Assembly (NCBI RefSeq): GCF_037975245.1
Contig: NC_092563.1
Location: 17,101,594-17,165,593, forward strand
Length of the DNA stretch: 64,000 bases
Origin: Apostichopus japonicus
Lineage: Eukaryota; Echinodermata; Holothuroidea; Aspidochirotida; Stichopodidae
Reading direction: 5' to 3'
A program made the position numbers and the translations under genes. Below, one piece after another: positions 1,100 to 64,000 of this stretch. The notes under the pieces are model-generated. The model was given only the letters and a program-made list of their open reading frames with translations, was not told the origin of the DNA and did not search any database. Numbering within the stretch: position 1 is the stretch's first letter; each line of letters opens with the position of its first letter.

Positions 1100-1225
1100 G
1101 ATAGTTGTCTTGGAATTTAGATATCTAAAACCTAAATTTACTTTAAAAAAAGCCAAAATGCTACGAAAGGAGGAGAATTTTAGGATGGGAAAACGGGTAT
1201 TAACACCAATTTGATCTTCCTGCAG

Positions 1226-9595: not shown

Positions 9596-10510
9596 CACAG
9601 TCTGCATAAGGTTCCATGTAGCTCTCATAGTCTGTATATGACTCTGTATATGTATTTTTGATCCTCCTGCAAGCAGGAACTTGCTAAGAAGCCTCATTGG
9701 CTTATCAAAGCCGCAAGTTGACCGAAGTCAGTCTCTTACATTCATATTTAACGTCCATGATTATTAATCTTGGGAGTGACTTGAACCGGGGACCTTATGA
9801 TTGGAAGGCACCGGCGTTAACCACTGAGCTAACACTCCACATATGACTCTGTATATGACTCTGTATATGTGTCTATATGACTCTGTATATGTGTAGCTTT
9901 AATAGTCTGCATACGGTACATGTAGCTCAGTCTGCATAAGGTTCCATGTAGCTCTAGCAGTCTGCATAAGGTTAATACGGCTCTGACAGTCTGCATAAGG
10001 TTCATGTAGCTCGAATAGTCTGCATAAGGTTAATATGGCTCTGACAGTCTGCATAAGGTTCATGTAGCTCTCATAGTCTGCATACGGTACGGTTTAGCTA
10101 TAATAGTCTGCATACGGTACATGTAGCTAAGTCTGCATAAGGTTCCATGTAGCTCTAGCAGTCTGCATAAGGTTAATATGGCTCTGACAGTGTGCATAAG
10201 GTTCCAGGTAGCTCTAGCAGTCTGCATAAGGTTCTGTTGACAACTATTTGTCTGCACAAAGTCCTGTGTATCTGTGATAGTCTGCATAAAGTTCATGTAG
10301 CTCTCACAGTCTGTATATGGCTCTGTGTAGCTCTAACAGTCTGCATAAGGTTCTGTGTACATCAATTAGTCTGCACAAAGTCCTGTGTATCTTTGGATAG
10401 TCTGCATACAGTCTGCAGAAGGCTCTGTGTTGTCTAATAGTGTGCATAACGTCCTGTCTAGCTACACCAGTCTGCGGATGGTTCCGTGCAGCTCTTACAG
10501 TCTATCCTTC
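9596..10510. repeat. Minisatellite array, about 34-bp unit
   Basis: The core word AGTCTGCATAAGGTTC, followed by ATGTAGCTCT and a few variable bases, recurs roughly every 32-36 bp with moderate divergence. A SINE (9661-9840) interrupts it, with array sequence on both sides. Apparent ORFs on both strands at 10060-10437 are products of the repeat period and are not genes. Confidence 0.85.
9661..9840 (-). mobile_element. tRNA-derived SINE inserted in the minisatellite
   Basis: Read on the minus strand from 9840, it has an A-box-like TTAGCTCAGTGGTTAACGCC and a B-box GGTTCAAGTC at tRNA spacing. The non-tRNA body that follows contains GACTTCGGTCAACTTGCGGC and ends near AGGAGGATC. Array sequence resumes on both sides, so the SINE landed in a pre-existing array. 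The terminal bases diverge from a functional tRNA acceptor stem and the RNA would not end as a tRNA, so I call a SINE rather than a tRNA gene. Confidence 0.75.
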
Positions 10511-11311
10511 GCCGTACTTGATGGGTTGATTTTCCTAACTATGGCTCTTAATTCAAATTTTTCAAATTAGTCATTATTCTAACTCAGTATATAGCCTAGT
10601 TGGCAGCATTCAATCTTGTCATAAATAACTGGATGTGCAGATTGGTTATCAGTTACGATATCGATGCAACAAACAAACGATATAAGTAAAGTAATAGATT
10701 AAGTTCACTTACAATTCTGTGACAACACACAGATTGTTTGGTGTGTTTTCATTATTATAGAGTTATTTTGTTCTTTAAAAGCCTTTGATCAACTAAACGA
10801 CTATTGCATCTAAATATCCTAAAGGAAAGGAACATTGCACTGATAAGATTTTACATAAAGATATATATATACTGAATAAAAAAGACATAAATGGAAGATA
10901 AAACACACTCTCACTATTCCAGAGGAATTCCCCTAACACTCAACCATTTGGAGGGGGGTGGGGGGGAGGGTAAGGCTAAGATGATATGTCATCCATGGCA
11001 GGGTTCTATACAAGGTTTGCTGGTAATATTCTGTCTGCCAGAAGGGTGGCTGAGCCCTCACCCCCACCCCAGCTGGATTTACCCCTGCTCAAGCATCATA
11101 GGGTGAAAGAACCACTTGAATACTCCTGTATGAAATACTTGATTTTTATTATGTTTGACTTTGTTTTTAAATGACTCACATTTGATAAATCGTTAACAAC
11201 TGATATCTTATGCCGCTCAATAAAATCTTCTGCTTGGTCAGTCACTGGACGGATGGCCTTCTTTACTCAAGCTGCGATGCTGTTGCTGGTCAAACAATTT
11301 TTGGCCCCTCC

Positions 11312-14300
11312 TTATCTGTGATCACCGGTGAAGATTTGCATTTCTTGAAGGGACTCGGCAGAGGAGGAGTGATATACGGCGGCTGCGTCGTTCGGTGGTG
11401 ATTCGTCTATCACTGGGATGCTCGACAATCTCGCAGCAGGCTGGCTACTTTGAATTAAAGTCCCTGTTGTTAAAGAGAAAAAATCAACGTTAAGACTCTT
11501 GGTGCTTCTATGGTGCTTCTTGGTGCTTCTTGGTGCTCTATGGGCCATAGAGCAAAATATCGACCAACCGTATTCAATCAATTGAGCAGGAAACTATAGA
11601 CGATTGATGGAGAGAGGGGTAGGGATGAAGGGGTGGGGGGGAGGGTTAATAATGAGGCTGACACCCAGTTAAGTATTAAAGTAGGTGTGCATCAACAATG
11701 TATAATTAATCTTGATATAAAACTCTACAGATCAAGGGATCATTAAATGTTATTTACCTGTAATGTGGTAAGGTTCAACATTTAGTGCGGGGAGATTGCT
11801 GTTGGTTAGACTGTACCGTCGCACGATATGCTGCTCTAGAAATGTCTCAGGCTGGCCGTGCCCCAAATCGATGGATTTACCCGTGGTGCTGTTGAACGAA
11901 CGGTCCAAGGACACCATATCTTCGGCGGTGAACAATGGCGGCACCGTGCGGATCGGAGGTAAATGGCGGTCCTGTCGCCTCTTGCGCTTTTTCCGTTTGG
12001 GTTTCTTTCTAGGAGTTTCATCGTCCTGACAACTGTATTCCCTTTTCGATGTCGGTGACATCTTTTTTTCTGTTTCAATTGTTGGAGATGGTGGTTGCTG
12101 TGGTGGGGTTGGTGCACTCTCTGTTTTCAGGTTGGTTTCTTCCATTTCGTATCTCGAGAAAGTTTGATTGTTATAGCTAGCGTCGTCCTTGATCGGAACC
12201 AGGCTTGATGACACCTCTCTGAAACAAATTTGTAAAAAATTAAATAGATTCAAAACTTTAAAAAATTGTCAAGTTATTTGATATGGCTCCTGTAGACAAT
12301 TGCAGAGATTAACCTCAAATTGCTATAGCCAAGTCATAATTACAGAAGCCTCATGATTCAACAAACATGATGATTATTTATGGAAACGTTAGACTTTAAT
12401 CAATTTAAACCTTTCCCTTTCCTTTCAATTGCACAGATCTAAAATCAATTCAAGATGCTCCTTGAAGCTGCAATTTGCATATAATTTTTGTTCAAATATG
12501 TTATGACAACACTCTATAGATGTTGGGTGGCAATGGTAACACTTATCTAAAGAGAGGAAAATATTCCACAGTGCTAGTCGGAAACGCCATCTCAATATCT
12601 GGTTCCTCACTCAAGATTTAATTGACTGAATGTCTTAAATCTATCTTTGACTGGCTAAGCCCTGCCTTACTCCAGGAAAGTTGATCACATATTGGATTTG
12701 TTATTTCATTATGACAAATGTTTTTCAATAGCTTTTACTTTCCTATTGCACTGTTCTTGGTGATTTATCACTGAAATGTAACACATTTAAATTGTTTGCT
12801 TGGCAGATCAATGTACTTTAGAATTTCACCAAAATGCAACTTGTTGAGAAACATCATTGTCCTCTATGCATAAATGTTACAAATATTGTAAAGAAACGCA
12901 AATGTTATTTTCAAATCGATTGCCAGGGATGATATATATCATACAAGCACAATCTGCTCGATGCATTCACAAAAAATATCATCAACTTTGAAAACTGTCA
13001 TATCTTTGTAACACAAAATGCTATGAGGATCCCATTTTCACACAAAGATGCAGAATTTTTTTTTCCAGCAATCATGTTAAGCAAATAAACTTCAGCCACC
13101 ATAGAAATACAGTATCTCGTTGGATGTCTGTTGATTCATATAATGCATCATTAAAGGTAAAAATTATTGCAGAGAGGGGGAGAGAGAGAGATTGACTTTC
13201 AGACACAATTATCTCCACAAATAAACTGTCAACCTACTTTTGGCTGATGTCATTATCATTGTCCAGAGATTCCATGCTTTCATTAGTTGGAGCTACCTTA
13301 TTACTCTGCAAAAGAAAAGGGGAACAAAAGTTGACAAGATTGTTAATACTATTATATTTAAATTGTTTATTTCATAAACAGAGATGTCCAAGTTATGACT
13401 TTTCTTTATTCTCTTGATTGTCTTACCAATATACCTTCCCTGCTGGCCTTACAAAGCCTTTCAATTGTGTAATTTGAAGACATGTCCCTTATTCTGACAA
13501 CAACCTTCCCAGGACATTGATTGTCTTACCAATACATGATTGTCTTACCAATAGACCTTATTCTGCTGGCCCTACGAAGCCTTTTAATTGTGTAATTTGA
13601 AGACATGTCCCTTATTCTGACAACAACCTTCCCAGGACATAGATTGTCTTACCAATACATGATTGTCTTACCAATATACCTTATTCTGCTGGCCCTACGA
13701 AGCCTTTTAATTGTGTATTTTGAAGACATTTCCCTTATTCTAACAACAACCTTCCCAGGATATTGCAAGTCAATTGTTTTTTCTCATCACCACCCCCACA
13801 CTGCACCCTCCTCCTGAAGTAAGAAAGCCAATCCAGAGCAAAACCAAACAGATGAAGTACAAAAATTAGACAGAAAAAGGAACAATCGGCATATTAAGTA
13901 CAATAAACCATGGATGTACGGGTAATAATTAAATCTGGTATTGGATCTAGCCAAATGCAATGCACAATGGTCACATTGCCATAGATAACGGTGTGGAGAC
14001 ATTAGTGAACTCTCAGTGTCTTTAAAGGAGACAAAACTCAGACCCGCCTCAACTGATGCACAAAGTGCGAACACTAATTATTATCCCCTGGATTATTCGG
14101 ATATTATTTTCGAAATTTGTTTGACCGTAGAAAAAGTTTGTGAGAAACCTACGTTGCAAGAGAATGGACAAGCTGAAAACATAACATAAAACAAAATGAA
14201 ATATGAATAACTTGTTTAATGTGCCTTATCTTGTCCAGAACCTTCCAACACATACAAACACAGGTAAACAACAAGAACAACCCAAATACCCAATGTAATG

Positions 14301-17300
14301 AACAGATAACCAACCTCAAAGTCTTAAAACCTACAACCTTTCACCAGACAAAGACACGCTACTATGGTGACCGTATCAAAGGTCACCATAGGGGTGATCG
14401 CTAAAAAGCGGTAACCTATACAGCTTGTCATCTTCTACAACTACAGTTCTAGAAGGTCGATTAAGTCACTCTCCTTTCTTTCTTGGTCCTAAAATATGTA
14501 ACGTAATCAGTACGGTGCATAGACCTGTGCTAAAACCAATCCTCCCTGGTGATTTCAGGAGCTCATAACCTTCGCACCTTAACCAACTCGTCTCTGGTTA
14601 ATATCTGGTCAATCAAACTTTCCAGATCAGTAGTATTTACCTGACAGCAACCACTTTTGTTCTTCACTTCCCTATTATTTTCAACCTCTTCTAATTCTAA
14701 TCGAGTTTCCTCCTCTCGTCTTTTAACAATGTAGTCATACGTGCCCATACCATTGCACACTGTAGAGAAGCGGGAAGAAAAGACATGTTATTGGGAGTGG
14801 AAGATTTCAAGCTATGTTATATGTTTCCTCTCAAGAATATGTCAACATGATGCTGCCAGTATTGTTACATCTGGAGACAGTACTACTGTTCATGGTGACA
14901 CGGTTATCGATACCGAAACCGTCTATAATATGACTGGAAATCTTAGGAGAGTAATTAAAAATTTATGTCTAGAGTCAGTCTGCGAAATTGATGCATATTT
15001 TACAAAGGCAGTACAGTTATTTTTTGATATTGGAATGATTTTACACATATGTGGTTTTTACTTACATAGATACATATGACAGGAGTAATTACATATTATG
15101 TCTACTTTAGACAAATTGATGTGTATTTTACAAAGGCAGTACAGTAAGTTGTTGATATTGGAATGATTTTACACATATGTAGTTTGCACTTACATAGATA
15201 AACTATGACTGGAGTTATTACATATAATGTCTAGAGTCTTAGAGAAATTGATGCGTATTTTACAAAGGCAGTAGAGGAAGTTGTTGATATTGGAATGATT
15301 TACCACATATGTAGTTTGAACTTACGTAGATAAATATGACTGGAGTAATTACATATTATGTCTAGAGTCTTTTAGAGAAATTGATGCATATTTTACAAAG
15401 GCAGTACAGTTAGTTGTTGATATTGGAATGATTTACCACATATGTAGTTTGTACTTACATAGATAAATATGGAAGCCGTAAAGGTGTATCATCAGAGCTA
15501 ATGCTATCGATAAAAGAATAAATGTAATTAATACAGCTAAGAAGAAGACTATGCCAGGGACTTCTACAAACAACCTCAGTCCATCTCGAAAATTCATTTG
15601 CTCTGGCTCGGCAGTAGTCGCAGCAAAAATACTCTCTGTACTGTAATATTGTGTCGAGCCCGGCTCCTCCGATAGTAAAACTATATCGGGACTCGCGATA
15701 GAAAGGTACTGGGATGTCTTGATGCCGTATTTACGCTTCTTCAGGAGATGTCTCGAACGGAAGAAAACAATGACTTCACACAAAAAAACAATTTGACGAG
15801 ATAGGATTTGATTTGATGATTCGGTATAATTTCTTCTCTGTCGATTCTCTTTACAAATAAAACTAAATTACAATGATTTGACTTGACTTGACTCCGTCAA
15901 TTAAACAATTAGAAAGAGTGATGAAATGGTGACGAAGCAACGAACTGATCACGGAGCGCTGACGGAGTGATAAATTTGCTGATCAAGTGATAAACTTTCG
16001 GCCTCCTTTTTCTTATATACCATACTTCTACAAAATCCCTCTGCGCACAATCAGGAGGCAGCCAATAACCTGACCATCCAGTATTAACTTAACGATATAA
16101 AAATAATTGTGCTGGCACTGATCTGCCCTGATTGGTTGGGAGTTTGGAAGTCCATCCCCTTTCTATGGAAACTTCCATACCACGTGAGAAAACCTTCTCG
16201 AATGTTCCACAGACATAATGGAATCTATTTTGGGAAAAGGCCCTGTACCAAGATTCAATAAGATAGTTAAAAACTTCTCGTGGGAAAACTGAATCCATGA
16301 CCTAGATAAATACATAAGAGGCCCATAAGGTGTCTCGATGGAGTGTTTCGGTAACATCAAAGAGATGGTATTACTATTTCATAACATCCCCCTCAATCTT
16401 TTAAAATTTTTGGATACTCCAAAATTTTAACATCATACTGCTTTAACTTATCATTATCTCAAGAAGGTAGTGCGAGCACATTCATTAATATTCATTGACT
16501 TCAATAAATGGTCTTCATATATCTCAAAGGTTAACATCTAGGTTACGAATTATTAAAAATGATCATATGGTATATACATTGACCCTATCTCCATGAAATT
16601 GAAGTGTACCTCTTCAACATTGATGACATCATATGATGTAATCCAAAAAAAAATATCATTAAGATATCTTAAAGTTACATGACACAGCAAAATATGCAGT
16701 ATCTCTAACAAAATACATTTATGCACATTTCATACATCAATAATACATTTATATCAAAAGTGAAATCATGCCGTGAATTGGGGAGAGATCAGAGAAAACT
16801 TGACTTAGTTATCTTTTAACTGAACAGAACAGCTTGGCGTTCCATGAAAAATTCGTACATTAGAAAAAGAACCTTAAAATATTACAAACTCACTTAAAAA
16901 AACCTCCTCTTTAATGAAGGCATAGTTTCAAAACTGCTTTGAAACCTTGTGAATCATATACATTCACTTCAAGAATATCAACAAAATGTGACTCGATAGC
17001 ATAGTGACCCTAGGTATGCACTCCGAAATAATTCTAGTAAAGTACCAAAGTACTAGATATTCGATACCATAAAAGAGACCCCATAGACTATGACATCAAC
17101 AAATCTTTCTTCAAATTAACATAATACTTAACATCTTGTCTTTTAAACTTCATGATGAAATTTACTTTTTCATGAATATTTGAGGAAAAGAAAATATATA
17201 CATAACTTCCTCAAAAGATCTATACTCTCATTTGCTTCGATAACTGTTGCTGTAAGCAAAAGTTGCAAATCACCAATGCTGTCTCTAAATAGCCTTCAAT

Positions 17301-20300
17301 ATATAACATAAATGATGCAATGTAAATATCCCTAAAATATTTCTCAATATATGAAAACCCATGTTGCTAATATTCCGGATATGTTCTAATTGCCGGGTAA
17401 ACGTTTGAACGAATTCATAAGGAGAAAAAAGGTATACTCATTACACATTTGTTATAAAAGATGAAACTAGGTCACTTGGTGGTGGTTTTAACAATAAAGC
17501 TTATATTGTTACACCATACAGTACAATGACTTCCACTTAATAGGTATGCAGGTAAATGCAATGACGCATTCCATTCATACAATTGTGGGTAAAACACCTG
17601 TTCATCTGAACTTAAAGCAAAATGCAGTTATACACATTAACCATATAATGTTTGCAACATCCTGCCTGGATTGCCTGTAATGTTCAATCCCTTTTCATGG
17701 AGAAAATTCATTATTTCCCCTGTGTTGGAATATTTTCCTACATTCCACCAAAAATCATGACTCTTAAAGCCTGTTGGAAAACATGGTGTCTGATAGGTGA
17801 CCAGAACCTGTAATTCACCCAATTTGTATCGAGCACGTTGGACTTTCATGTCTCCTTGTGGAGCATTTGCAAAAACTTTCTTTTGCCTTAATATGCTATC
17901 TTTCATGGAAGGATATGGAATTGCTAATCCTTCATTATGTGCTCTATTCTCTAAAAAGGATGCAACATTCATTGGCTTAGTGCTCATAAGACACATGACA
18001 TGATCTGAAGTTACCCCTGGCAAAATGTTACCAAACTCATCATGAAACTCAATATGTGCATCTTGCATGACATTAACATTTTCTGCATTCGAAGTGTTAC
18101 TACTCAAAACATTTCTCATTCGAGCAACCTTTTCACTTGATGAACCCTTTGTTTTCAAGACCTTTCGCAATTTCTGAATGTTGGTGATATTCTTAGTCTC
18201 AAAAGATGCTCTTACAAAACATGGTTTAAGCCTGTTATAATTGAATACATCACTAAGAATTTCTCCTTTGAGAGTGGCCAACAAATAATGAGTCCTATCC
18301 AAAACTTGATGGATCACTAGTGGTCCACACCATTCTGCAGCAATTTTGCGAGAGTTCGCAGTCAAGGAGGAAGACGTTGGCTTATACAGATACACTAATT
18401 GACCCGTTGAATAAATTGCACCCTTGTCCAGTTTTGCACTTATCTTAACATTTTGAGCATCTTGTTGCTTCTTTTGTAAGACCAACATTACCCTTGACAA
18501 ATGATCAAATCGTTTCTTTAACAATGCAGCATATTCTCCATGAGATTGTGATAATCCTGCCATGGGATTGAATGATAAATTTGTAAGATTTGGCGGCTTA
18601 CGTCCAAATGCAAGTTCAAATGGGCTATAGCTACCTAACTGAGGAGAGGAAAATGTGTTATATGCATAGGCTGATGTTGGGACAAATCGTACCCAATCCG
18701 TACCAAACTGATTTAAGTTCACTTTGAGGAAATTTGAAAGAGTCTGAATGTGTCTTTCAACCTGTAAGCTTCCATGATTGCTTACACTGATGAACTTTTG
18801 TTCAATGCCTAAAGCCTTACTTAAGAGCTCCACTAATTTTCCTGTAAGAGAAGCTGCCGCATCACTTATGATACAAGACGGTGGGCCAAAAGTTGTGACT
18901 ACCCTCTGCAATAATGCTTCACATATCGTTTCAGCATCAAGAGTCTTAAGAGAAACACATACAACAAATCTAGTGATCTCATCACAAACAACCATCAAAT
19001 GTTTAAATCCTGTAGCCGTTGTGGGCATAGTCTTGAAATCCAGACTAAGTCTGTCAAAAGGACGATAAGAATCAGGAATGCGAGCATGATATTGTCTCAA
19101 TTTGTCCGGTTTCTTACGGAATTCTTGACAACGGAGACATGCCTGAATATAATTACTGATGCGTTGAAACATATTGCGCAGATAGAAATGTTGTCTAATG
19201 GTCAAATATGTACGCATTACACCCTGATGATTACTTAACAAGTCATCATGATATCGAGATATTATTTGTTCTACCATAGTCTCAGGTACGACTAACTGAA
19301 GAGTCATCTTAGCATCATTAGTCTCATGCAAAAATATCCTGAATAACAAACTATTACATAACAAATAATCCTCTGCTTGAGAACGAACAGTTCTAGCATG
19401 CTTAACATTACTTGGAATAATGTCGTGTGCAAGAAAATCATAAATTGGTTTGTAGTAAGGACAAGTTTGTTGTTGAATTTGCAACTCCTTTACATCAAAT
19501 GGCAGATCATAGTTTTTGATCAGCTTTCCTTGAATTGCCTTCATGACCTTATTCAATTCCTTTTGTTTTGGAATGTGCCCTGTAACCAAATGATCAATGT
19601 TTGTTATGACTGGCTTCGGCTGAACAAATAATTCTGGTGGTGGTTCTCTGACTACCTCTTGCACCCTATGTCTACTCTGATCCACTAATCTTGGCTCTGA
19701 AGGTTGAGAAACACTTGTAAAATTTGGCACAACTAAAATGTCAGGACTATATGTATGTCTATTTTCACTCGGCATAGAAATAGTAGGCCTTTGAATATAT
19801 GTTTCTCTCTTATCATTAAAAACAACTGGTGTAGTCCTCTTTTGTGACTCAGATTGTGGTCTCTGTGTAACATGCTCATTAGAATGTGTTGCCTTAGGAA
19901 CGGATGTCCTTTCAACTCTATTTGTTGATTCTTTGGCTGGGGAATCCTGCTTAGACTCCTTAGTGACTTTATTCGGAAATAAATCTGGAACTTTGACTCC
20001 CATTGACCTTGCCATTGACCTTGTCATGATTGGATTAAATGTCTCCTTAGGTAGAGTTGAAAAATCCTCATAAGCATTGACCTCTTGAGCAACCTGATCT
20101 ATTTCAGAGTGAAATTCCTGTGGTGCTCTAGACAAATAATCTGCCAAAACCAATTCTGAACCCTTTTTGTAACCAACCTGAAATGTATATTCTGACAATT
20201 TGAACAGAAGTTTACGTAAGCGTGAAGTTGCTGGTTCTTGCTTCGACTTAAACAATTCAACAATGGCAGAGTGATCAACATATGCCTCAAATTCTACATT

Positions 20301-23300
20301 TTGCAATAAATGTTTGAATGCTGTCACATTAATAAATAGACCCATCATTTCTAATTCAGTTACACTATACCTCTGACATGCTGGTGGTAATATCTTAGAG
20401 TAATATGCAATAATATTCTCTTTGCCATTAACTCTTTGGGTCAAGTATGATCCTGTTGCTACTCGTGATGTGTCGCTATATAATACAAAACGACCATATT
20501 TCTGTGGCATATGCAATATAGGTGGATTACACAACAACTCTTTAATACTTTGAAATGCACACTGATGTTCCTCTGTCCATTTAAATACCTTTTTCTTACG
20601 ACTCAAATGATGTAATGGTCTCAATAGTGCTTGAACATTTGGGAAAAATGAAGCCACATAATTAACTGCACCTACAAATCGTCTTACTGACTTAACATTG
20701 TGTGGTTTCGGTGTGTTCCTGATTGCTGCACATCTGTCATGTAAAGGTTGGATACAAGCCTCACCTTCTGGGGTTATTGAGAGCAAATGTCCCATATATC
20801 GGACTGAATTTTGGAAAATGCTACACTTTTTCGGAGAGATTTTCAATCCGTTGTCCATTAAAACCTTAAAAATTGCCTGTAGGTGTTGTTTGTGCGATCG
20901 TTTGTCTGCACTGTACACAATAATATCGTCATGATGAGCAATACAGAACTTATTTGAATTTGGGATCGTTGCCAAAATATCATTAATTTTCGACTGAAAG
21001 ATTGCTGGAGATAAATTCAATCCCTGTGGTAAGCGTTTATAATAATAATGCTTTCCTCCATGAAATGAAGCAATACCTGTATATTGTTGTGCATGAACAC
21101 TAAGTGGCAGACAGAAGAATGCAGACTTTAAATCGAGAACACCCAAAATTTTGGCTCCAGAGTACCCTATGGTACGGATAGTCTCATTCAGTAATGGAAA
21201 TGGGTGATTGAGACGTTTTATTCTACTGTTCAAGTAGCGAAAATCTGTGACAACCCTTTTGTCTTTTGTTCCCTTCTTTGGAATGAGGAAAACCGGTGAG
21301 GTATAAGACTGATGTCCTACTGCTAAGATTCCTAATCGCACTAATTTGTCAAGCTCACTGGCGACAATGACTTTGTCCTCATCTGAAAGTCTATAGGGAC
21401 GTATGTAAAATGGCTCATCATTAGTAAGAGTAATATCAGCCTCATAATTTGGACAGTGAGATAATTCACCATAAAGAGAAAATGCATCTCTATGTGAGTC
21501 TAGAAATTCATAAATGCTTTCTGTTTCTGAAGCATCTAGAATACTTTGTTCCAAATTAATGTTTTCTCTCATGATCTCCTGTTCGGATTTGGAAACCAGG
21601 GGATCATCGGCTGTTAAATGTGGATAACGATGTAAATTATATCGTGTAATTGCGTCACGATTCTCTTTGGAGTCTGAATTGGTTCGAAAAAGAGACGGTT
21701 TTTCGATGTCTCTCATGACATTGAGAAAATCTAGAGAATCAGTAGGTATGTCTTCTGTGACCGTAATGATATCTGCTAAATCTAAATGAGCCACTGTGCG
21801 AGAAGGATTCAGACAAAATTTCTGGTTACCCATGTTCCTTAGTAGAATCTTTGTTCTACCTTTATGCATTTTCACTAACATTCGTGAAGGACACATACGA
21901 GATATTAGAGGAAACGGTTTAATAACCACATCTGCATTTCGTGCATAAAGTGGAAGACGTCCCTGTACAGTAATGTATCTTTGCTGACCTGGGTAAATAA
22001 CAAATCTCTGCACAGGCCTAAGGAAAACTTTGGCTTGTTTAATTCTAAAACAGTTTGTGGTAAAGTCCAAAGATCCATTCAATTCCTTCAGAGTTTGACT
22101 ACCTAATATTAAGTCAATACCTGTCAGGTTTGCAGCAATTAAAGCAGAAAGCTGAAATTCATGACCTTGAATTTTGACCTGAAATGTTATCGTGCTATAC
22201 GCATGAATAAACTGACCATTACCCAACTTTAGGTTTACTACATCAACTGAGACTGGTTGTATAGAGGATAAATACTTTGAATTTTGCACTGTAGAAGAAG
22301 AAATGATAGAGCGTGTCGCTCCACTATCAAACAACAGTGAAATTCCTTTACCATCATGTAAAGTACCTCTTACAAAATTACGTGTGTCCAGTTGAATATC
22401 CACATTACGGTCGTTCCCTGTATATTTAGAACTAGGAATATTACTATTCTTCCAAATATTATTTGCTTTACGTTTCGATCTTCCTTTACTTGGTACTTTG
22501 TCTGGAGTCACTGTATGATGAGTGCAATCATAAGTGCTCCCTACTGAAAATTCTGTGTTGGTACTTTGTTTACATTAGCCTCTATTTCATGGCTAAGGCG
22601 AATTTGGCAATATTTTGCAAAATGACCTCGATTATGACAGTAATGACATGTGATTGAAGGATTAAAATATGGTAACCTTCTCCTGTTATCATTCCGACCT
22701 GTCCTAGGACCACGAGAATCACGAGAACTATATCTTTGCCTCATATCTTTAGGATTGTCTTGCGATTCTGACCTACGTGACTGATCAAACTTGGTCTCTA
22801 ATTCCTGAATTTTGGTACACAACTCGTGTATCTCAGAAGATGCAGAAATAGATGGAGTCTGAACAGAAGACGCTTTGTCGTGCATTGCCATAAATAGTTC
22901 GGAAGAAGCTGTGGGTTGACTTTGGATTTGTAAGTCAAAATAACATTGGACTTTCATGACCAAATCTGCAATTGTTGCTTTTGGTGATGCAGACATTAAC
23001 ACTGCTGAGCGGCATTGCAAAGGCAGGGTCGAGATGAATTTATCTCTAATTTGGTCCTCGCCATAACTTAATTGTGCTGCAGCTTTTGAAATTTTGGCCA
23101 AATGTGCTTGAGCTGTATCACCTGGCGTATAGGTTAATGCATGAAATGCCTGTGATTTAGCGTAGGAAGAAGTGCCTGGACTGAAACGAGCAAGGAATTG
23201 CTTGCGCAGATCAGCAATAGTTGAAAAATTTTTGTTTTCAATCCAGAGTCTGGCTTGGCCTTTTAGTGTTCGCTTAAATATGCGACATATTTCATTAAAT

Positions 23301-26300
23301 TCTGCCTCTACAGGGGGGGTTTGGGGCGGCAATTTATGCAACTCTAAATAATCTTCAAATCCCAAATAATGAGCTTCGGCTAAATCTGCATCAACTACAT
23401 CGCCCTGAAATCGTGATGGCAAAAAATCAGTGGGCCTATGTTTCTGCATAACATTAACAGAGGTCGAAGTTTCCTGTTCACTGACGGACATTATGCCGCA
23501 TACAATTAGGCTAGTTACGAGTATACAACATGAGCCTTTACTAAATTGAACACACTATCGACCATAATTAAATACAAATAACAAATATGCAATACATGAT
23601 GGACACGATTTAAAACAACTTATCGTTACACTCTGATCTCAAATAGGGGTTGGGATACAAATTGGCATGATTTCACTCACCCTTAAGTTTAACTATGAAC
23701 TGGTACTGGAACTGCAAACGATGATTGAAGACCCTCGGCTAGTAGTAGTATAGTAGTAGCAGCAGGTAGTAGCAGGTAGGTAGTAGCAGGTAGTAGCAGG
23801 TAGGTGGTAGCAGGTAGGCCTACATCTCGTATACTGCAGATTCGTTCGCCGTTAACATCGGGTAGAGTCTTGGCTTAGATCGCGAAAAATGTTCAGTTCT
23901 GATGTTTAGAGCTGTAGTATTCTACGTACTAGTTGCGCGAATGTTCAAACGCGAACTGCATGCTGGGTTGATTAACGTTAGTGTACAGATCAGTGGTTCC
24001 GGTGTACAGACTTAGGCTAGTATAGGCTGACTTCCATCGCAGAGTGTTTCCGTTAGGCTAGGTCGTGAACATGCGCTGTGTTCCTCGTTAGGTCTTCGGG
24101 CCAAAAAAAAAATCACCTGTTCGTTATTGAACGTAACGAACGAAAGTTGTGAAAAGTTCCGTTACCGTTTTGTTCCTGAAGAAAGCAACCGATCTCCACC
24201 ATGTAATATTGTGTCGAGCCCGGCTCCTCCGATAGTAAAACTATATCGGGACTCGCGATAGAAAGGTACTGGGATGTCTTGATGCCGTATTTACGCTTCT
24301 TCAGGAGATGTCTCGAACGGAAGAAAACAATGACTTCACACAAAAAAACAATTTGACGAGATAGGATTTGATTTGATGATTCGGTATAATTTCTTCTCTG
24401 TCGATTCTCTTTACAAATAAAACTAAATTACAATGATTTGACTTGACTTGACTCCGTCAATTAAACAATTAGAAAGAGTGATGAAATGGTGACGAAGCAA
24501 CGAACTGATCACGGAGCGCTGACGGAGTGATAAATTTGCTGATCAAGTGATAAACTTTCGGCCTCCTTTTTCTTATATACCATACTTCTACAAAATCCCT
24601 CTGCGCACAATCAGGAGGCAGCCAATAACCTGACCATCCAGTATTAACTTAACGATATAAAAATAATTGTGCTGGCACTGATCTGCCCTGATTGGTTGGG
24701 AGTTTGGAAGTCCATCCCCTTTCTATGGAAACTTCCATACCACGTGAGAAAACCTTCTCGAATGTTCCACAGACATAATGGAATCTATTTTGGGAAAAGG
24801 CCCTGTACCAAGATTCAATAAGATAGTTAAAAACTTCTCGTGGGAAAACTGAATCCATGACCTAGATAAATACATAAGAGGCCCATAAGGTGTCTCGATG
24901 GAGTGTTTCGGTAACATCAAAGAGATGGTATTACTATTTCATAACAGTACTATCAGCATCTGGAAAGACAGGATGAACAAAATATCTCACTTAAAAGAAT
25001 GTTCAGTGGCTTTCAAGAAAGAACGAAAGTAGAAAAGGAAGAAATACAGAAAGAAAAACAAGTCTCAGTGTGTTGAAAAAATTCAAATATAACTGGACAA
25101 GCCCATTGATACGCATGGGGATGGGTTCCTACACTTTGGTGAAACTAAAATTTCATTGAACTTTTCCATGACAATATTAAAAGTTAAAATAAAATAAAAC
25201 TGTTAGCAAACTGGTTATTCACTAGAGAGCCTGTGTAAGAGAATGTGTAGAAATAAGTTGGCCTGACGTTTCGATCCTAGCAGGATCTTCTTCAGAGGCT
25301 AAATGATAAATGATAACATAATAAAAGTTGCATGAACTTTTTATTGAACAATTTTGGGCAAATCATATGGAAAAAAAAATGTTGGGCTGTGAACCTATAA
25401 GAATTAAAAAATGAGATGTAATCAGGACATAATTATAACATAACCTTCATCTGATGAAATGAAGGAGGTGTATAAGCAGACGGAGTGCCCCATACCACCT
25501 TTTTCATTTTATCATGCAGAGCATTTTCAAAGACAACAGTGGCAATTTGTAAAGTTTTTAAATAGTTAGTCCACCCTTTTCTATTCCCAATAAATTTCTT
25601 GTGGATTCTAGGTAATTGGTTCTTTTTCACTTTCATGATAACGATCTCCTTACAGGTGATCTGTGCCAGAAAAAATAAATAAATAAAAAATAGTTCCAAC
25701 TTACTGTAGTATGGATGAAGTAGCTGTGGATGAACCCAATACACTACACATATATAGAGTAACACGATTAACACCAATATTGCACTAGTCAAACCGGTTA
25801 CCAGAAGGAGAAGGAAAAATCTGCCGAAAAGAGAAACAGAAGCATCTCTGAAATACACGGTTGGTACAAGTCTTTACTTTCGTATTTATAGTAGATGTAA
25901 CTCTATCTTCATTCCTTACCAATTAATTAAACTTAAAGATGTATGAGGCAGGCCGGCAGGCATGATTTTTCTATAGGGTGGTGTCTTCAGCTGTGGAACT
26001 TGTATAATTGAGCATAGTCCTAGGTGAGTGGTCCATGTTTCTATAATTGAGGATGCCTGGATGACAAAATGGTATTTTAATTTTGCAACTATATCAATTT
26101 GTTTTCTTTCACCATTGTTTTGTTGACATTGCATTGTAGCATTTATAAAGACCTTGTAATGGTCGTGAGCGATTCCAATGGTTCTTTAGATTCTCGTTTT
26201 GCCACACTTGAATCTGGTGTTTCATAAAAAATATATAATTTAGAAATTCATTAGAACATAACAAAAATTTAATTTTGCCTCAATTGTTAACTGTAGGTCT

Positions 26301-28258
26301 CCTTATATTCTATAGTCCATTTTAGGTTATGAATATTCGTCACACAATCTGCTTACCATTCTTTTTCAGTGTCTTCTTTCATCTCTTCAATATTTTACTG
26401 ATGTTTAAATTATGGTCAGTCTTGTGTTTATAACCCGCTGAAATCAATGTTCCAACCTGCAGCCTTTTCTAAGGTAAAATTGCCCTAAGCCTTCATAGTC
26501 ATTCTTCTGTTATCAGACAGGCAACTCATGCAGTGTTTGGACATACTCTTCATGTATCCTGTCTAAAAGAAGATTTATTGCTAAAAGAAGATTTATTAAA
26601 GACGCTTACTTGTAATTTTTGCCACCGACACAGTTATTCAGCCATTTACAGTGATGATCAAAATCGGACACGCACTTATTGCAAGTACCACAGTGTTTCG
26701 ACTTTGGTAAGCTGAGGGTGGGGGGAAAAAAATATATAAAAAAATGAATAAAACTGGTAAATGACAAATATTAATGTGAAGACGAAAGAAAATTGACATT
26801 CGCTGATACCAATTATGCAGAAGGAAAGTTACTTTCACATAATGCCTACATGAAAATTGCTCCTTATTATTACTGCCAATTTTTTTTGGCAAATTTTTAC
26901 GCAATTTACAACACAAATTTAGCCTTTTCTCGAGTCTACGAGGGCTGATGCTTACACTTGTGTCTCGCAGATGTAGCAATAACGGTTTTCTATGACATGA
27001 GAGTGCTGGGCTCTGTCAAATTTTCCAGTCTTTTCTTTTCCTTTCCTTCCAGAGTATGGATCAACAGGATTTATTGTCATACTCAGTAAATATGACAATG
27101 CCTGAACAACAAAGGAAGTACCAATGACCTGAGGGTAATGTTAAGGACACAGTCAGTTAAATATTAATTTGTCTTAATTAGTAATTTATCCATGATTTTC
27201 ATGTGATCGACATGGACAGGGCTGATGATTGTTAATCTTACCTGGTGGATAATTAAGTGACTTTAATATGAAATTATATTATTAAAAGGGAATAAAATTG
27301 CAATTAGCCTTCATGATAATAATTTGCTTTTTTACCTATTGCGTCCAACTCCACTTCCACTTTGCTTGCAATATCATTCACTCACAGATATTACCCAATA
27401 TTTTTTGTAGAAATGTTCAGTCGATTACAATGCACGAAAAGACTCTCTTTATTTTCCTTAAATATGTGAGTAGAAGAATGGTCAGAATTGTTTTATAAAA
27501 GTGAAAATTGTGTAAAAGTAAGTTGGCCTGACGTTTCGATCCTAGCAGGATCTTCTTTAAAGGCTAAAAGCCTTTGAAGGCTTAGCCTTTGAAGAAGATC
27601 CTGCTAGGATCGAAACGTCAGGCCAACTTACTTTAATTTTCACATTCTCTTACACAGGCTCTCTAGTTTTATTTTATTTTGAAAAGTGAAAATTGGTTAA
27701 TGTAATAATACCAGAGATACAACTCGGAGATATAGTATATAAACACAATTAGGAATTATTTCTAACATGTAACAAGTACGGCCAATGTTTCTAAGGAGCA
27801 GCTAATTTATGCCCCACCATTTCTTTGTTTGGTGATGTTTAATTAACAAATTTAATTATGTATACAGTTTTAGAGTCAAGCACAGCAATGACAGCATTTA
27901 TCAGATGTATCTCATAGCAAAATCTTTCATAAACTGGGTTTATTGTTACACAAATATGTACAGTAGATCAGTAAAAAATAAATTAAACAGAACAGAACTA
28001 TATAGCCTAGTATTTTCAGTATTTTCTGCAAAAAAAAAAAAACTGACTACACCAAATGTGAACCCTAAATTATTTCCCTTATCTTGGGCAGAAATAACCT
28101 TAAAAAGACAAAATTAAAAGGATACAGCATAGCCTGCTAGTTGCCACTTGGATGGGAGGACAAGGTTTGCTACTCCAAAATAGAAGACACTGAAATACAG
28201 CAGGAAACCGAGAGCGACAAACTGCAGGGGATGAGGAGGCCAGCTCCACCCGTTGGTC
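11312..28258 (-). CDS. ZDHHC1: ZDHHC1-type palmitoyltransferase; coding exon split by an LTR retrotransposon
   Basis: DHHC S-acyltransferase; the vertebrate ZDHHC1 is an endomembrane enzyme. Exons in transcript order: 28258-28126, 27101-26956, 26711-26610, 25820-25705, a split exon (24959-24951 plus 15641-15459), 14759-14641, 13305-13238, 12218-11758 and 11463-11312. All phases agree, giving 495 residues, close to the family length. Motifs: [11 protein letters not shown] before TM1; [39 protein letters not shown] with the catalytic DHHC; NNCVG; TM3 in the next exon; TM4 ending FHIYL; and GTYDY in place of TTxE. The C-terminus has a Lys/Arg block (about 12016-11987) and Ser/Pro-rich sequence. 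I did not find the start-codon exon, which must lie upstream of 28258. TM2 across the 28126/27101 junction is about six residues shorter than in vertebrates, so a small exon may be missing. The retrotransposon is in the same orientation as the gene. Reading from the exon into the 5' LTR meets a stop after five codons, which would remove TM4 and the tail. Confidence 0.88.
13420..13765. repeat. Tandem repeat in a ZDHHC1 intron, about 107-bp unit, three copies
   Basis: Three copies of a unit containing ATTGTCTTACCAATA, GCTGGCC, TTGAAGACAT, CCCTTATTCT and ACAACAACCTTCCCAGGA. Within it the short word ATTGTCTTACCAATA is itself repeated. On the gene's (minus) strand this word reads TATTGGTAAGACAAT, a donor-like sequence. 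Confidence 0.8.
14970..15471 (-). repeat. Tandem array seeded at a ZDHHC1 exon end, about 130-bp unit, four copies
   Basis: On the minus strand the real exon ends CATATTTATCTAT|GTAAGTAC at 15459/15458. The same exon bases plus donor recur about 133, 265 and 393 bp further into the intron (donor words at 15321-15325, 15189-15193 and 15061-15065 on plus coordinates), followed each time by the same intron sequence (AAACTACATATGTG, then ATCATTCCAATATCAA). The repeated unit therefore includes about 12 nt of coding sequence (HIYL) and the 5' splice site. The ORF at 14741-15079 on the plus strand comes from the repeat. Confidence 0.85.
15459..15641 (-). other. ZDHHC1: Larger part of the interrupted ZDHHC1 exon (TM4)
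   Basis: This is the downstream 183 nt of the exon. It encodes [15 protein letters not shown], then a hydrophobic segment ([20 protein letters not shown]) and FHIYL, and ends at the GTAAGT donor. Its first four bases on the minus strand are one copy of the 4-bp target duplication. Joined across the insertion to the nine bases 24959-24951, it makes a 192-nt exon that fits the flanking phases exactly (2 + 63 codons + 1). The adjoining 3' LTR is open in the same frame but offers no ATG. Confidence 0.9.
15642..16386 (-). repeat. 3' LTR
   Basis: This is 745 bp, beginning TGTTAT and ending ATTACA on the minus strand (TG...CA). It matches the other LTR base for base at a constant offset of 8,560 bp as far as I can read. 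A TATATAAG box lies at 16012-16019. The last part is open in frame with the downstream ZDHHC1 exon, but without an ATG. Confidence 0.95.
16387..16396 (-). other. Polypurine tract
   Basis: On the minus strand TTGAGGGGGA directly abuts the TG of the 3' LTR. A G-rich purine run at this spot is the plus-strand primer of LTR retroelements. Confidence 0.8.
16397..17636 (-). other. Non-coding interior segment between pol and the 3' LTR
   Basis: About 1.24 kb of A+T-rich sequence with no ORF worth naming on either strand. Some Gypsy elements carry an envelope-like gene here, but I see no trace of one. It may hold the 3' untranslated region and signals I cannot identify. Confidence 0.7.
17637..22574 (-). 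CDS. pol: Retrotransposon pol polyprotein
   Basis: The frame is open from 22574, just after a stop at 22577-22575, to the stop at 17637. There is no clear own start; the first plausible initiator is a GTG at 22511, from which residues are numbered (1,624 aa). Aspartic protease: FDSGAT at about 61-66. Reverse transcriptase: LPQGLNLSP near 494-502, first catalytic Asp in GVLDLKSAF (460), and the usual Y-x-D-D box reads HHDD (526-529). RNase H: YSDTS (D680), VDHS (D746), ADYLSR (D791). Integrase: zinc finger H1088, H1095, C1125, C1128, then the catalytic triad D1158, D1217, E1252. The linker between RNase H and integrase is long (about 280 residues, polar), and about 200 residues follow the integrase core. 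The frame is -1 relative to gag with a 34-nt overlap, suggesting expression as a Gag-Pol fusion by frameshift. Confidence 0.95.
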   Translation of the reverse strand, partial: CKQSTNTEFSVGSTYDCTHHTVTPDKVPSKGRSKRKANNIWKNSNIPSSKYTGNDRNVDIQLDTRNFVRGTLHDGKGISLLFDSGATRSIISSSTVQNSKYLSSIQPVSVDVVNLKLGNGQFIHAYSTITFQVKIQGHEFQLSALIAANLTGIDLILGSQTLKELNGSLDFTTNCFRIKQAKVFLRPVQRFVIYPGQQRYITVQGRLPLYARNADVVIKPFPLISRMCPSRMLVKMHKGRTKILLRNMGNQKFCLNPSRTVAHLDLADIITVTEDIPTDSLDFLNVMRDIEKPSLFRTNSDSKENRDAITRYNLHRYPHLTADDPLVSKSEQEIMRENINLEQSILDASETESIYEFLDSHRDAFSLYGELSHCPNYEADITLTNDEPFYIRPYRLSDEDKVIVASELDKLVRLGILAVGHQSYTSPVFLIPKKGTKDKRVVTDFRYLNSRIKRLNHPFPLLNETIRTIGYSGAKILGVLDLKSAFFCLPLSVHAQQYTGIASFHGGKHYYYKRLPQGLNLSPAIFQSKINDILATIPNSNKFCIAHHDDIIVYSADKRSHKQHLQAIFKVLMDNGLKISPKKCSIFQNSVRYMGHLLSITPEGEACIQPLHDRCAAIRNTPKPHNVKSVRRFVGAVNYVASFFPNVQALLRPLHHLSRKKKVFKWTEEHQCAFQSIKELLCNPPILHMPQKYGRFVLYSDTSRVATGSYLTQRVNGKENIIAYYSKILPPACQRYSVTELEMMGLFINVTAFKHLLQNVEFEAYVDHSAIVELFKSKQEPATSRLRKLLFKLSEYTFQVGYKKGSELVLADYLSRAPQEFHSEIDQVAQEVNAYEDFSTLPKETFNPIMTRSMARSMGVKVPDLFPNKVTKESKQDSPAKESTNRVERTSVPKATHSNEHVTQRPQSESQKRTTPVVFNDKRETYIQRPTISMPSENRHTYSPDILVVPNFTSVSQPSEPRLVDQSRHRVQEVVREPPPELFVQPKPVITNIDHLVTGHIPKQKELNKVMKAIQGKLIKNYDLPFDVKELQIQQQTCPYYKPIYDFLAHDIIPSNVKHARTVRSQAEDYLLCNSLLFRIFLHETNDAKMTLQLVVPETMVEQIISRYHDDLLSNHQGVMRTYLTIRQHFYLRNMFQRISNYIQACLRCQEFRKKPDKLRQYHARIPDSYRPFDRLSLDFKTMPTTATGFKHLMVVCDEITRFVVCVSLKTLDAETICEALLQRVVTTFGPPSCIISDAAASLTGKLVELLSKALGIEQKFISVSNHGSLQVERHIQTLSNFLKVNLNQFGTDWVRFVPTSAYAYNTFSSPQLGSYSPFELAFGRKPPNLTNLSFNPMAGLSQSHGEYAALLKKRFDHLSRVMLVLQKKQQDAQNVKISAKLDKGAIYSTGQLVYLYKPTSSSLTANSRKIAAEWCGPLVIHQVLDRTHYLLATLKGEILSDVFNYNRLKPCFVRASFETKNITNIQKLRKVLKTKGSSSEKVARMRNVLSSNTSNAENVNVMQDAHIEFHDEFGNILPGVTSDHVMCLMSTKPMNVASFLENRAHNEGLAIPYPSMKDSILRQKKVFANAPQGDMKVQRARYKLGELQVLVTYQTPCFPTGFKSHDFWWNVGKYSNTGEIMNFLHEKGLNITGNPGRMLQTLYG
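22541..23491 (-). CDS. gag: Retrotransposon Gag
   Basis: A 316-residue capsid/nucleocapsid protein starting at ATG 23491. The middle (about 60-195) resembles the helical retrotransposon Gag domain: [28 protein letters not shown] and [12 protein letters not shown]. An Arg-rich stretch (about 250-273) is followed by one CCHC zinc knuckle (C282, C285, H290, C295; spacing 2-4-4). The stop at 22543-22541 lies inside the start of the pol frame. Confidence 0.93.
   Translation of the reverse strand: MSVSEQETSTSVNVMQKHRPTDFLPSRFQGDVVDADLAEAHYLGFEDYLELHKLPPQTPPVEAEFNEICRIFKRTLKGQARLWIENKNFSTIADLRKQFLARFSPGTSSYAKSQAFHALTYTPGDTAQAHLAKISKAAAQLSYGEDQIRDKFISTLPLQCRSAVLMSASPKATIADLVMKVQCYFDLQIQSQPTASSELFMAMHDKASSVQTPSISASSEIHELCTKIQELETKFDQSRRSESQDNPKDMRQRYSSRDSRGPRTGRNDNRRRLPYFNPSITCHYCHNRGHFAKYCQIRLSHEIEANVNKVPTQNFQ
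23492..24184 (-). other. Retrotransposon 5' leader
   Basis: Untranslated stretch between the primer-binding site and gag. It contains a short tandem run of TAGTAGCAGG-type units at about 23740-23825 (plus-strand reading). No ORF is supported. Confidence 0.75.
24185..24201 (-). other. Primer-binding site
   Basis: Directly inside the 5' LTR the minus strand reads TGGTGGAGATCGGTTGC. The leading TGG matches the CCA end of a tRNA and the position is right. I do not assign the tRNA species. Confidence 0.75.
24202..24946 (-). repeat. 5' LTR with TATA box
   Basis: This is 745 bp, identical in my reading to the 3' LTR. A TATATAAG box on the minus strand at 24579-24572 is a plausible core promoter for the element. 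I see no canonical AATAAA on the minus strand downstream of it within the LTR. Confidence 0.95.
24947..24959 (-). other. ZDHHC1: First bases of the interrupted ZDHHC1 exon, with target-site duplicate
   Basis: The minus strand reads TTTCCAG|ATGCTGATA and then GTAC. This is the acceptor, nine exon bases (24959-24951) and the second copy of the 4-bp duplication (24950-24947), followed by the 5' LTR. The preceding exon ends in phase 1, and A plus AT gives Asn, continuing Ala-Asp-Ser-Thr. Confidence 0.9.
25226..25300 (-). repeat. Penelope-type end motif, single copy
   Basis: On the minus strand, CTGAAGAAGATCCTGCTAGG runs into ATCGAAACGTCAGGCCAACTT. It is preceded on the plus strand by GAGAGCCTGTGTAAGAGAATG, which also flanks the hairpin at 27513-27665. 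CTGAAGA, a 5-bp stem (GATCC/GGATC) and GAAAC resemble a hammerhead ribozyme core of the kind found at Penelope-like element ends, with one extra A before the stem. Confidence 0.5.
27513..27665. repeat. Inverted pair of the Penelope-type motif forming a long hairpin
   Basis: AGTTGGCCTGACGTTTCGAT and CCTAGCAGGATCTTCTT (27521-27558) are mirrored by GAAGAAGATCCTGCTAGG and ATCGAAACGTCAGGCCAACT (27591-27628). The arms are about 50 nt with a short spacer. The outer right flank repeats the flank seen at 25226. It lies in a ZDHHC1 intron. Confidence 0.75.
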
Positions 28259-31200
28259 CTACAGAAAACCATTTGAGTTGCCTCAATGGATCTGCATTGT
28301 AGATGAGAAATGATAATCACTACGGTAAGGAAGAGAAGAAGAGAAAGAAAGAAAGGAAAGGTTTTATTAATAATTTGATTAATAAATTTATTAATCTAAC
28401 ATTTTTTAATCTAACATTTTATTTCAATTACACATTAATTAAACATTTTTTGTACATTCCCCTTTTTTTTTACATTAAACATAAATTAAACATTTTATTA
28501 ATCTAAACTTCATAATAATAATTAACACAATGAACGATTTTGATACACAACTTTACAGTTTTGACAAAAACTTACCATAAAAAGCAGACAACAAAAAGTG
28601 ATTTGTCCCCACAGAAATTGTGTACGTGCTTTTGCCATATAGGAAATGCATGGGGATTATAGCAGAAAGCAATGGCAGAAACTAACTGTGGCATAAAATA
28701 TCCGTCCCTCCTGCCTTGACGAGCACGCTCGTCAACTTGCCACTGGCGAGTAGAATTATTACTCTGGCTGATAGAGAATGCACCACGCTAGACATTTTGG
28801 CGAGTGACTCGTGGGCTAGTCAAACCCCAACAATAGCAAGACTCTCGTTACAAACACATCACAGTATCATAAAAGCAGTACCTTGGCAAACTTGAAGTAA
28901 GTTAAAGTTGTAAACTGATTTTTGTCAATGGCCAATCTCAATGGGAATTAACCGTGAAAACGGTTAGCTTTCTGTATGGCACTATATAGACGAGAATTTA
29001 TCATGTGCAATAGTTTGTTCACAAACTTCACAGAGCTTTCTCTCCCTTTGTGAATATACAGCGAAAACATCATTTAAAATCGCATGTTAACATCTTTATC
29101 CAAGTAAAGGTTGCGCTTACGAAGTGCGTAATATGTTTCACAAGTATTCATAAAGTGTTGTGTTCATTTATTCAATTTTATTAAACCAATTAAAAAGTTT
29201 CTTGAATATCAACATCATGATAGTTTGGTTAAATGGTCAGGCAACCCCTAAACAGTCTAGTATATTACTAGCAGCCCAAGTAGTAGTTACAATAAAACAA
29301 TGGAAATCCCCCTCTAAACTTGAAATATAAAAAGTGCATTTAATAACTAAAGGATCTACAAAAACTTTTAGCAAGCTGTATCCATGACAAGTAAGGTTTT
29401 GCACTATTAAATTCTATGAGCTTATGATTCAAGAACCTTTTAGAGCTGATATGCCAAAAATGAATTCCACAATTCAAGTTTGTCATTATTGTTTGTCATT
29501 TAAGTGAAACCATTTTGCCGACAAATCAGTTGGTTCAGAAGGTAGGTAGGATAGTATTAGCTTCATTAACACCAAAAAGTGTAGAAAAAATGTTTCAAGT
29601 ACTGCCAGAATTTCCAACACAAAAAGAGGTTGGACAAACACCTAATGGATGATTTCTTGAGGCATTTTCTACATGCCCAATGTTGGTAATACTTCACTAA
29701 ATTCTAAAATCTGTGAGTTTTGAGACAAGTTTACTGAATTTTTTGTAAAGATTATTCAGATTCTCACTCAACACATGTTACAAGTGGAAGACAGATCTAT
29801 TCTTTGTTAACCTTAGATATATTCAGATACAAATGATAACCTTGCGTTTGGCAGTGTAGTAGGGTAACAAAGACATTTTTGGTATACCATTTTGCAGTTA
29901 AAACTGCAAGAATACACAATTGGTAAATAAAAGAAACTTGCTATGTACTCGAGTAGCAGTTCAAAGTTGGTAGAGGTGTGATACTGTATTGGCATACTTG
30001 CCCACACCTAGGTACAGTAATATACTGTAGGTCTAAGAGCTTAGTAAGCACTTCGGGAGCCCTTATGTTTACAGATGCCAAGCTACCTATGTAGCAAGTA
30101 AACACCATTCTTGCCAAAGTTCTTTGGAATTGTTCGAAACAAAATAGGCCTAGATGCTTAGTAACATATTTTATGTTGTTCATGCTTTTTTTTTAGGTGA
30201 AAGAAATTTCAACTTTATATTGCACAGAAAAAAACTCCAATGCACATTAAACATGTATCTAACCTTAGAAAGTATTGATGTTATAACTTAGTTAGGTACC
30301 ATACTACTACTTATATCTGTAGGCCTATGGCTCCAGCCTCGAGGCTTAAAGGCATTGAAGACTCGCCCCAAACCGTGTGCCGCGATCTGAAAAAGTTAAC
30401 TTTCCGTTGCTTGCAAGTGAAGTTTTTTGTGTCGCTAAAAAATGCAGACAGTAATGAAACGTGGTACCTTGTTATCTTTCATCTAGATCTGAGATGTCCA
30501 TCGCTGCTTTATACACTGTGTTGTGGCTATTGACCGTATCTGCATGTATTGACTGTGCACTAGTGTCTAATTACCGACGGTAGCAAGCTGTGTGTGTATT
30601 TTCTGGGATCAATGGTTATGTCTAACACTTCTGTTACACCTCATTCGAAACAAGGTCAGATTACCAGCATGAGACGTTTCTTTGTGCGCGAGTCTTCAAT
30701 GCCTTTAAACATAGCCTTAATCATAATTATTAATAGTGGTGTAAGAATTTTGTATTTGGAAAGTAGATTTCAGTCAAGCTCGCTAAGTGGCATGTAGTTT
30801 AAAGTATATTTGTTGGTCTGCAAGACCTACAACTTATGTTAGGTCTTAAATTCCACTTAGCCCAACCTTATGACTAGTAGTACTAATACTAGTAGTAGGC
30901 CTATACTAACTTAGTCCTAACTATGACGTTACGTTTAGTCAGTGGGCCTAGGCCTAAGTGCTGTGAGTTATGGACAGGTCTACAAAGAACGAAGCTACAG
31001 TAAGTACGGAAATGTGGTAAAGTACTTTTGGCAGTTTTGAAACATATCTGCACCACAGGCCTAGGCTTTTGCGAGGTATTACTAGACTGTGGCTAGCAAC
31101 TCTATACCGGTATACATTTATCACCTTAACTAGCCTAATCGTCGACTTTCACTAACAGTAACACTAACATATATTAACAGTTTAAGTTTGGCTAAGCTAG

Positions 31201-35339: not shown

Positions 35340-64000
<28,661 letters not shown>

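Follow-up and report, generated by a model that had tools for sequence, protein, structure and literature searches.

A Ty3/Gypsy-type retrotransposon within a coding exon of a ZDHHC1/11-type palmitoyltransferase gene in the Apostichopus japonicus assembly

Does a palmitoyltransferase gene that harbors an entire retrotransposon in one of its coding exons represent a null allele, a rescued gene or a gene lost from the species? This question is raised by a stretch of 64,000 nucleotides of Apostichopus japonicus (assembly GCF_037975245.1, contig NC_092563.1, positions 17,101,594 to 17,165,593), termed the window hereafter, in which exon 5 of a ZDHHC1/11-type gene is interrupted by a Ty3/Gypsy-type element bounded by long terminal repeats (LTRs). 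The assembly carries a single copy of the gene, the two LTRs are identical, the reading phase is kept across the insertion site, and the public protein models are cut in two at the insertion. It is probable that the insertion is recent and constitutes a null allele, most likely segregating (rare or heterozygous), which is carried by the reference haplotype. The element would belong to a multicopy family with recent activity, and its integrase would have placed it in the ordinary way at an NTAN-type site, of the sort preferred by its kin, in coding exon 5 of a single-copy gene.

The host gene is constructed of nine minus-strand exons, which give an open reading frame (ORF) of 509 aa when exon 5 is joined over the insert, and the remaining host reading frame is undamaged. 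The acceptor TTTCCAG of exon 5 ends at 24960 and is followed by nine exon bases (ATGCTGATA) and then by the GTAC duplication, at the distance from the acceptor that a sequence-only reading of this DNA had given. Joining the flanks of the insert affords 13 + 179 = 192 nt with the phase kept from exon 4 to exon 6, and echinoderm proteins read across the join, in agreement with the 192-nt exon that the same reading had restored between its neighbours. Its ZDHHC1 family assignment also stands. The DHHC domain was recognized by PF01529 (E 1.8e-24, with a query 9 residues longer than the final model), the DHHC motif is encoded in exon 3, and all gene-named matches among those listed are of the ZDHHC1, ZDHHC11 or ZDHHC11B types; this assignment follows from the gene names of the matches (the best 120 of 752 and the best 120 of 216) and not from a tree. 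The nearest echinoderm matches among those listed are labelled only 'uncharacterized' or 'palmitoyltransferase'. The third transmembrane segment (TM3) is presumably encoded by exon 4, as judged from the topology of the family, and the hydrophobic stretch of exon 5, the putative TM4, aligns in the orthologues; the best PDB match spans query residues 95-166. An exon 4 start at 25847 was dropped, because the orthologues and an NCBI protein put the start at 25820.

The closest proteins, P0001 and P0002, are derived from 2.1- and 1.8-kb contigs that are probably transcripts. Over the 64 residues of exon 5 they are identical to the host at 40/64 and 33/64 positions, respectively, and both read across the join, as do the proteins of Acanthaster (22/64) and of Asterias, Amphiura and Anneissia (21/64 each). 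P0001 and P0002 share 32/64 residues with each other, so that the divergence of the host exon 5 from P0001 does not exceed that between these two, and normal constraint probably acted on the frame until recent times; this comparison gives no support for a relaxation of constraint on exon 5. The 3' end of the exon is overlapped by a tandem array of 133 bp (~4 copies, 14949-15471), in the region of which GTAAGT donors repeat at 15458, 15325, 15193 and 15065.

The element is complete-looking, with open gag and pol frames, and its LTRs do not differ at any of 745 bp. A primer-binding-site-like stretch and a polypurine-type tract abut the LTRs internally; TGGTGGAG of the former is present in 10 of 11 LTR-paired copies, and no tRNA gene was detected in the window by ARAGORN. 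The gag-like ORF reached 17.3 bits with Pfam Retrotrans_gag, which is under the cut-off of 24.1. It overlaps pol by 34 nt, pol being in a different frame (-1 by position), and no canonical -1 slippery heptamer was recognized by eye in the overlap. Pol displays, in order, RVP_2 (57-152), RVT_1 (410-575), RT_RNaseH_2 (645-742), Integrase_H2C2 (1075-1133) and rve (1149-1244), that is, the order protease, reverse transcriptase (RT), RNase H and integrase characteristic of Ty3/Gypsy. Together with the TG...CA termini and the identical LTRs, this order confirms the Ty3/Gypsy-like element of the sequence-only reading. From pol to the 3' LTR there is no ORF of at least 100 aa, and thus neither an env candidate nor an Errantivirus-like env was found.

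The youth of the insertion is indicated by its LTRs and by its kin. The absence of differences over 745 bp gives a divergence bound of ~0.004, which corresponds to under ~0.4-2 million years at rates of 5e-9 to 1e-9 per site per year. The LTR was then compared with its relatives in the assembly (671,581,487 bases, 35 contigs; the window is C3:17101594-17165593), where 443 candidates were obtained, the best 40 scored and 30 fetched; the fetched LTRs are the most similar to that of the exon-5 element, and the sample is therefore biased to close, young copies and says little on the whole family. Eleven LTR pairs were formed, which carry 0, 0, 0, 1, 1, 1, 2, 1, 0, 0 and 1 substitutions per ~745 sites, one pair having two gap columns in addition. 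A 4-bp duplication flanks 11 of 11 pairs, a 5-bp one none, and six of eight single LTRs also show 4 bp; the two single LTRs lacking it follow the purine tract and thus resemble 3' LTRs with a partner outside the fetched set. Among the duplications of the LTR loci L002-L031, 15 of 17 read NTAN (binomial p ~1e-13 against base composition), a pronounced target preference, which makes GTAC a typical target. Three copies (L008/L009, L012/L013 and L024/L025) are only ~2.4-3.2 kb long with 0-1 substitutions between their LTRs; they are too small for gag and pol and were perhaps mobilised in trans. The nearest other LTR is 97% identical among the best 40 of 443 scored and the nearest other gag 98% among the best 40 of 129, and hence no near-identical parent copy was found among the scored LTR and gag candidates of this haploid assembly. 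A recent insertion whose parent is missing from the same haploid assembly is in keeping with a family with copies segregating in the population.

An uninterrupted exon 5 elsewhere, which would have overturned the sequence-only reading, was looked for and found neither in the window nor in the assembly. The 3' piece of exon 5 gave one match in the assembly, while the five matches of the 312-aa half (16 of 16 candidates scored) are each an exon at the ZDHHC1-type locus in the window. Nothing beyond a 33% match (E 2.2) suggested a second exon 5 in the window, and no empty or duplicate copy of the gene was observed in the 671.6 Mb of the assembly. The NCBI proteins of A. japonicus are divided accordingly. 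P0121, a 'palmitoyltransferase ZDHHC1-like' of 204 aa, consists of exons 1-4 and a repeat-derived tail, and P0003, an 'uncharacterized protein' of 312 aa, begins with the ATG at 15597 and is 100% identical to exons 5-9 from there on; as the former ends before the insert and the latter begins after it, the gene is represented in the public protein set by two models divided at the insertion.

When translation is continued from the native acceptor at 24959 into the insert, it reads ...HPYYNADSTVMK and then stops, by position at TAG 24936-24934, which is the very stop in the LTR that had been foretold. A normally spliced transcript of the insert allele is thus predicted to be incapable of yielding the full-length enzyme. 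The 5' half would keep the DHHC domain and TM1-3 and would terminate at the LTR stop or within a repeat-derived last exon; it would lack the cytosolic tail and TM4, and this loss would probably abolish activity. The tail of P0121 differs from the predicted LTR stop, the model bypassing the 24959 acceptor; the acceptor of its alternative last exon scores -0.5 against +5.0 for the native exon-5 acceptor, and its use may therefore be a modelling choice. The repeat from which that tail is derived has at least 45 genome matches including itself (the best 40 of 227 candidates scored). This dispersed repeat, which contains GATCCTGCTAGGATCGAAACGTCAGGCC and resembles Penelope-type repeat ends, occurs at 25298-25222 in intron 4 and, judged by eye, as an inverted pair at ~27620-27520 in intron 1. 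The CTGAAGAAGATCC...GAAACG repeat near 25298 was considered as a ribozyme and not accepted as one, because Rfam gave no match at the gathering score over the window.

Table 1. Coordinates within the window of the host gene, the inserted element and the signals around them
Feature	Position	Strand	Remarks
Exon 1, coding part	28126..28272	-	ATG at 28272
Exon 2	26956..27128	-	
Exon 3	26610..26711	-	carries DHHC motif
Exon 4	25705..25820	-	start fixed by orthologues P0001 and P0002 and by NCBI protein P0121
Alternative last exon (P0121 tail)	25222..25298	-	intron 4, inside dispersed repeat
Exon 5, 5' piece	24947..24959	-	13 nt, with one GTAC
Target-site duplication GTAC, upstream copy	24947..24950	-	within exon 5
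Ty3/Gypsy-type LTR retrotransposon	15642..24946	-	9,305 bp, sense orientation relative to host gene
5' LTR	24202..24946	-	745 bp, TG...CA; TATATAAG at 24579-24572
Primer-binding-site-like TGGTGGAGATCGGTTGCT	24184..24201	-	immediately after 5' LTR, TGG-initial
gag-like ORF	22541..23491	-	316 aa; CCHC knuckle, read by eye
pol frame	17637..22574	-	1,645 codons without stop; protease, RT (HHDD), RNase H, integrase H2C2, rve
Polypurine-type tract GATTGAGGGGGA	16387..16398	-	abuts 3' LTR upstream; identical in 11/11 LTR-paired copies
3' LTR	15642..16386	-	TATATAAG at 16019-16012; ATG-free from there to LTR end
Target-site duplication GTAC, downstream copy	15638..15641	-	
Exon 5, 3' piece	15459..15637	-	179 nt; loop and TM4 region
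Cryptic AG acceptor within exon 5	15603..15604	-	exon 4 to 15602 keeps frame and TM4
First ATG past 3' LTR	15595..15597	-	in frame with exon 5; NCBI protein P0003 starts here
Exon 6	14641..14759	-	
Exon 7	13238..13305	-	
Exon 8	11758..12218	-	
Exon 9	11312..11463	-	terminal TAA

Several points weigh against a recent segregating null allele. Its null effect, its polymorphic state or zygosity and its low frequency are inferred from one assembly, and the absent parent copy could reflect loss, recombination or the limited scoring of candidates. The matches listed contain no full-length A. japonicus protein, only the split ones, which tells weakly against a common intact allele, given a patchy database, and which would also be expected if full-length ZDHHC1 had been lost from the species as a whole. 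Such a fixed loss is nevertheless distinctly improbable, as identical LTRs and a 509-aa frame that is otherwise undamaged speak against a long-standing loss. The dependence on a single assembly likewise leaves room for an assembly artefact or for a somatic insertion in the sequenced tissue, which we regard as very improbable indeed: the exact ends, the purine tract and the 4-bp duplication match those of 10 other LTR pairs, and an assembler would hardly pick a rare somatic insert. If the assembly is the one described in 2023, it rests on 64x HiFi reads averaging 14.7 kb (PMC10344927), which could span the insert and would argue against an artefact. More directly opposed to a null effect is splicing, since a junction from exon 4 to the cryptic acceptor at 15602 is possible and in frame, and would swap ~17 residues of a variable loop for one while retaining TM4 and the tail; the stretch lost is variable among the orthologues (7/18 identical to P0001). 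On a rough scoring matrix, which serves for ranking only, this acceptor scores +0.83, inside the native range (-1.2 to +8.1) and above the exon-8 acceptor (-1.2) and that of the alternative last exon, and a second in-phase acceptor at 15773 in the 3' LTR scores -0.7. However, the native acceptor of exon 5, which precedes the insert, is stronger (+5.0), and 58 of 626 AGs within the element outscore 15602. Skipping the 192 nt of exon 5 would preserve the frame but lose TM4, and removal of the element by splicing at the duplication would have to use poor sites (donor -6.5, junction acceptors -3.1 and -3.9, where seven of eight native donors lie at +1.5 to +4.0 and that of exon 1 at -5.7). Rescue by any of these three routes is accordingly considered improbable.

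LTRs can be captured as promoters of host genes and give rise to N-truncated host proteins, and the present arrangement resembles that known phenomenon in that a sense LTR lies upstream of an in-frame host ATG; it differs in being a prediction from sequence. The 3' LTR would then start transcription at its TATA box, leading to a stable 312-aa protein of TM4 and tail, with the 5' half as a separate DHHC protein. The sole TATATAA of the LTR is located at LTR position 368 and no ATG follows it within the LTR, so that scanning from such a leader would reach the in-frame ATG 45 nt beyond the LTR. This ATG, at 15597 and in the frame of exon 5, is the first met on read-through from the 3' LTR, and P0003 begins exactly there, yet a gene finder would choose it regardless, and its context AGCAAATGA is weak by the Kozak rules. 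The last 375 nt are ATG-free in 27 of the 30 fetched LTRs, several of which are two ends of one insertion, and the exceptions, L010 (-347) and L024 with L025 (one insertion, -369), carry their ATG within ~30 nt of the TATA position. By chance an ATG-free stretch of this kind has p ~0.001 under base shuffling but ~0.02 if a first-order model is used. As the 30 LTR loci also represent fewer insertions of common ancestry, this evidence is suggestive only. Furthermore, nine of the 30 fetched LTRs have no TATAWA near position 368, and the leader of the element itself contains 11 ATGs from TATA to gag, showing that ATG avoidance is not a rule for the whole leader. A preprint reports that Gypsy elements, which may be of another family than the one in the ZDHHC1 exon, are expressed during regeneration in another sea cucumber (PMC13228809). 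Promoter capture at this locus is a prediction, and we hold it to be unlikely. The broader proposal, that LTRs of this family tend to provide an ATG-free promoter leader and that the gene is in the act of fission into a 312-aa ZDHHC1 tail protein and a DHHC-only protein ending in another repeat, appears unlikely. If true, it would imply that an exon insertion in sense orientation could convert the 3' half of the gene it interrupts into a gene that is driven by the LTR and translated. The segregating null allele is therefore retained as the preferred explanation.

The element shares with the Ty3/Gypsy class (Metaviridae) gag followed by protease, RT, RNase H and integrase, TG...CA LTRs and a 4-bp duplication (the norm of the class being 4-6 bp), and differs from it in the motif of its RT, which is HHDD instead of YxDD, and in lacking an env candidate. 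YxDD is the usual motif in most RTs, without being strictly defining. HHDD is positioned at pol residues 526-529 (pol numbered as 22511-17637, minus strand). Ty3 Gag-Pol is the closest solved structure (7q5b, E 3e-73) and the top-ranked of 213 PDB sequences (60 listed), and it is by this ranking that the affinity of the RT, to Ty3 as against retroviruses, was judged, with BEL/Pao outside the comparison. The named kin of pol are from Holothuria leucospilota (56%) and Patella caerulea (51%), over pol residues 330-1250. The first position of the motif was aligned in 95 of 102 matches, with P0264 (at least 45% identity) dropped as unreadable. At or above that identity it is occupied by H 21, I 5, V 2 and M 1, with an aromatic residue in 0 of 29 readable matches; at 30-45% by I 17, Y 8, F 3 and H 1, with four gaps; and below 30% by Y 17, F 2, H 2, V 1 and A 1, with nine gaps. 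A tree of 93 RT-RNase H rows places the element within a fully supported group of 49 rows.

Upstream of the gene, a run of minus-strand ORFs at ~36550-60840 resembles a VIRMA/virilizer gene, and the one piece of it that was tested gave no Pfam match. Satellite arrays lie among these ORFs, with a 32-bp unit at 59228-60338 and an 82-bp unit at 51483-52642.

Insertional mutations caused by LTR elements are well known, as in the gypsy alleles of Drosophila and the IAP and ETn alleles of the mouse. The A. japonicus locus is similar in that a fresh LTR element lies in a gene and a truncated product is expected; in contrast with those alleles, it is present in a public animal assembly and interrupts a coding exon, and two proteins are listed for the one gene. 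The kind of event is ordinary, and what is unusual is that it struck a conserved single-copy gene within a coding exon and that the public protein models are cut in two. Searches of the literature for A. japonicus ZDHHC1 and for retrotransposon insertion polymorphism in sea cucumbers returned no report of a ZDHHC1 insertion. Users of the proteins of this assembly meet two truncated proteins in place of one ZDHHC1, and, as mammalian ZDHHC1 is tied to STING signalling, comparisons of gene content or immunity in farmed A. japonicus could be misled. A Ty3-like lineage devoid of the YxDD tyrosine may merit separate study. Moreover, the insertion offers a natural candidate null allele that is easy to type and whose cause is recent and identified, and at this locus it could be tested cleanly whether an LTR in sense orientation, with a leader free of ATGs, can divide one gene into two that are both expressed.

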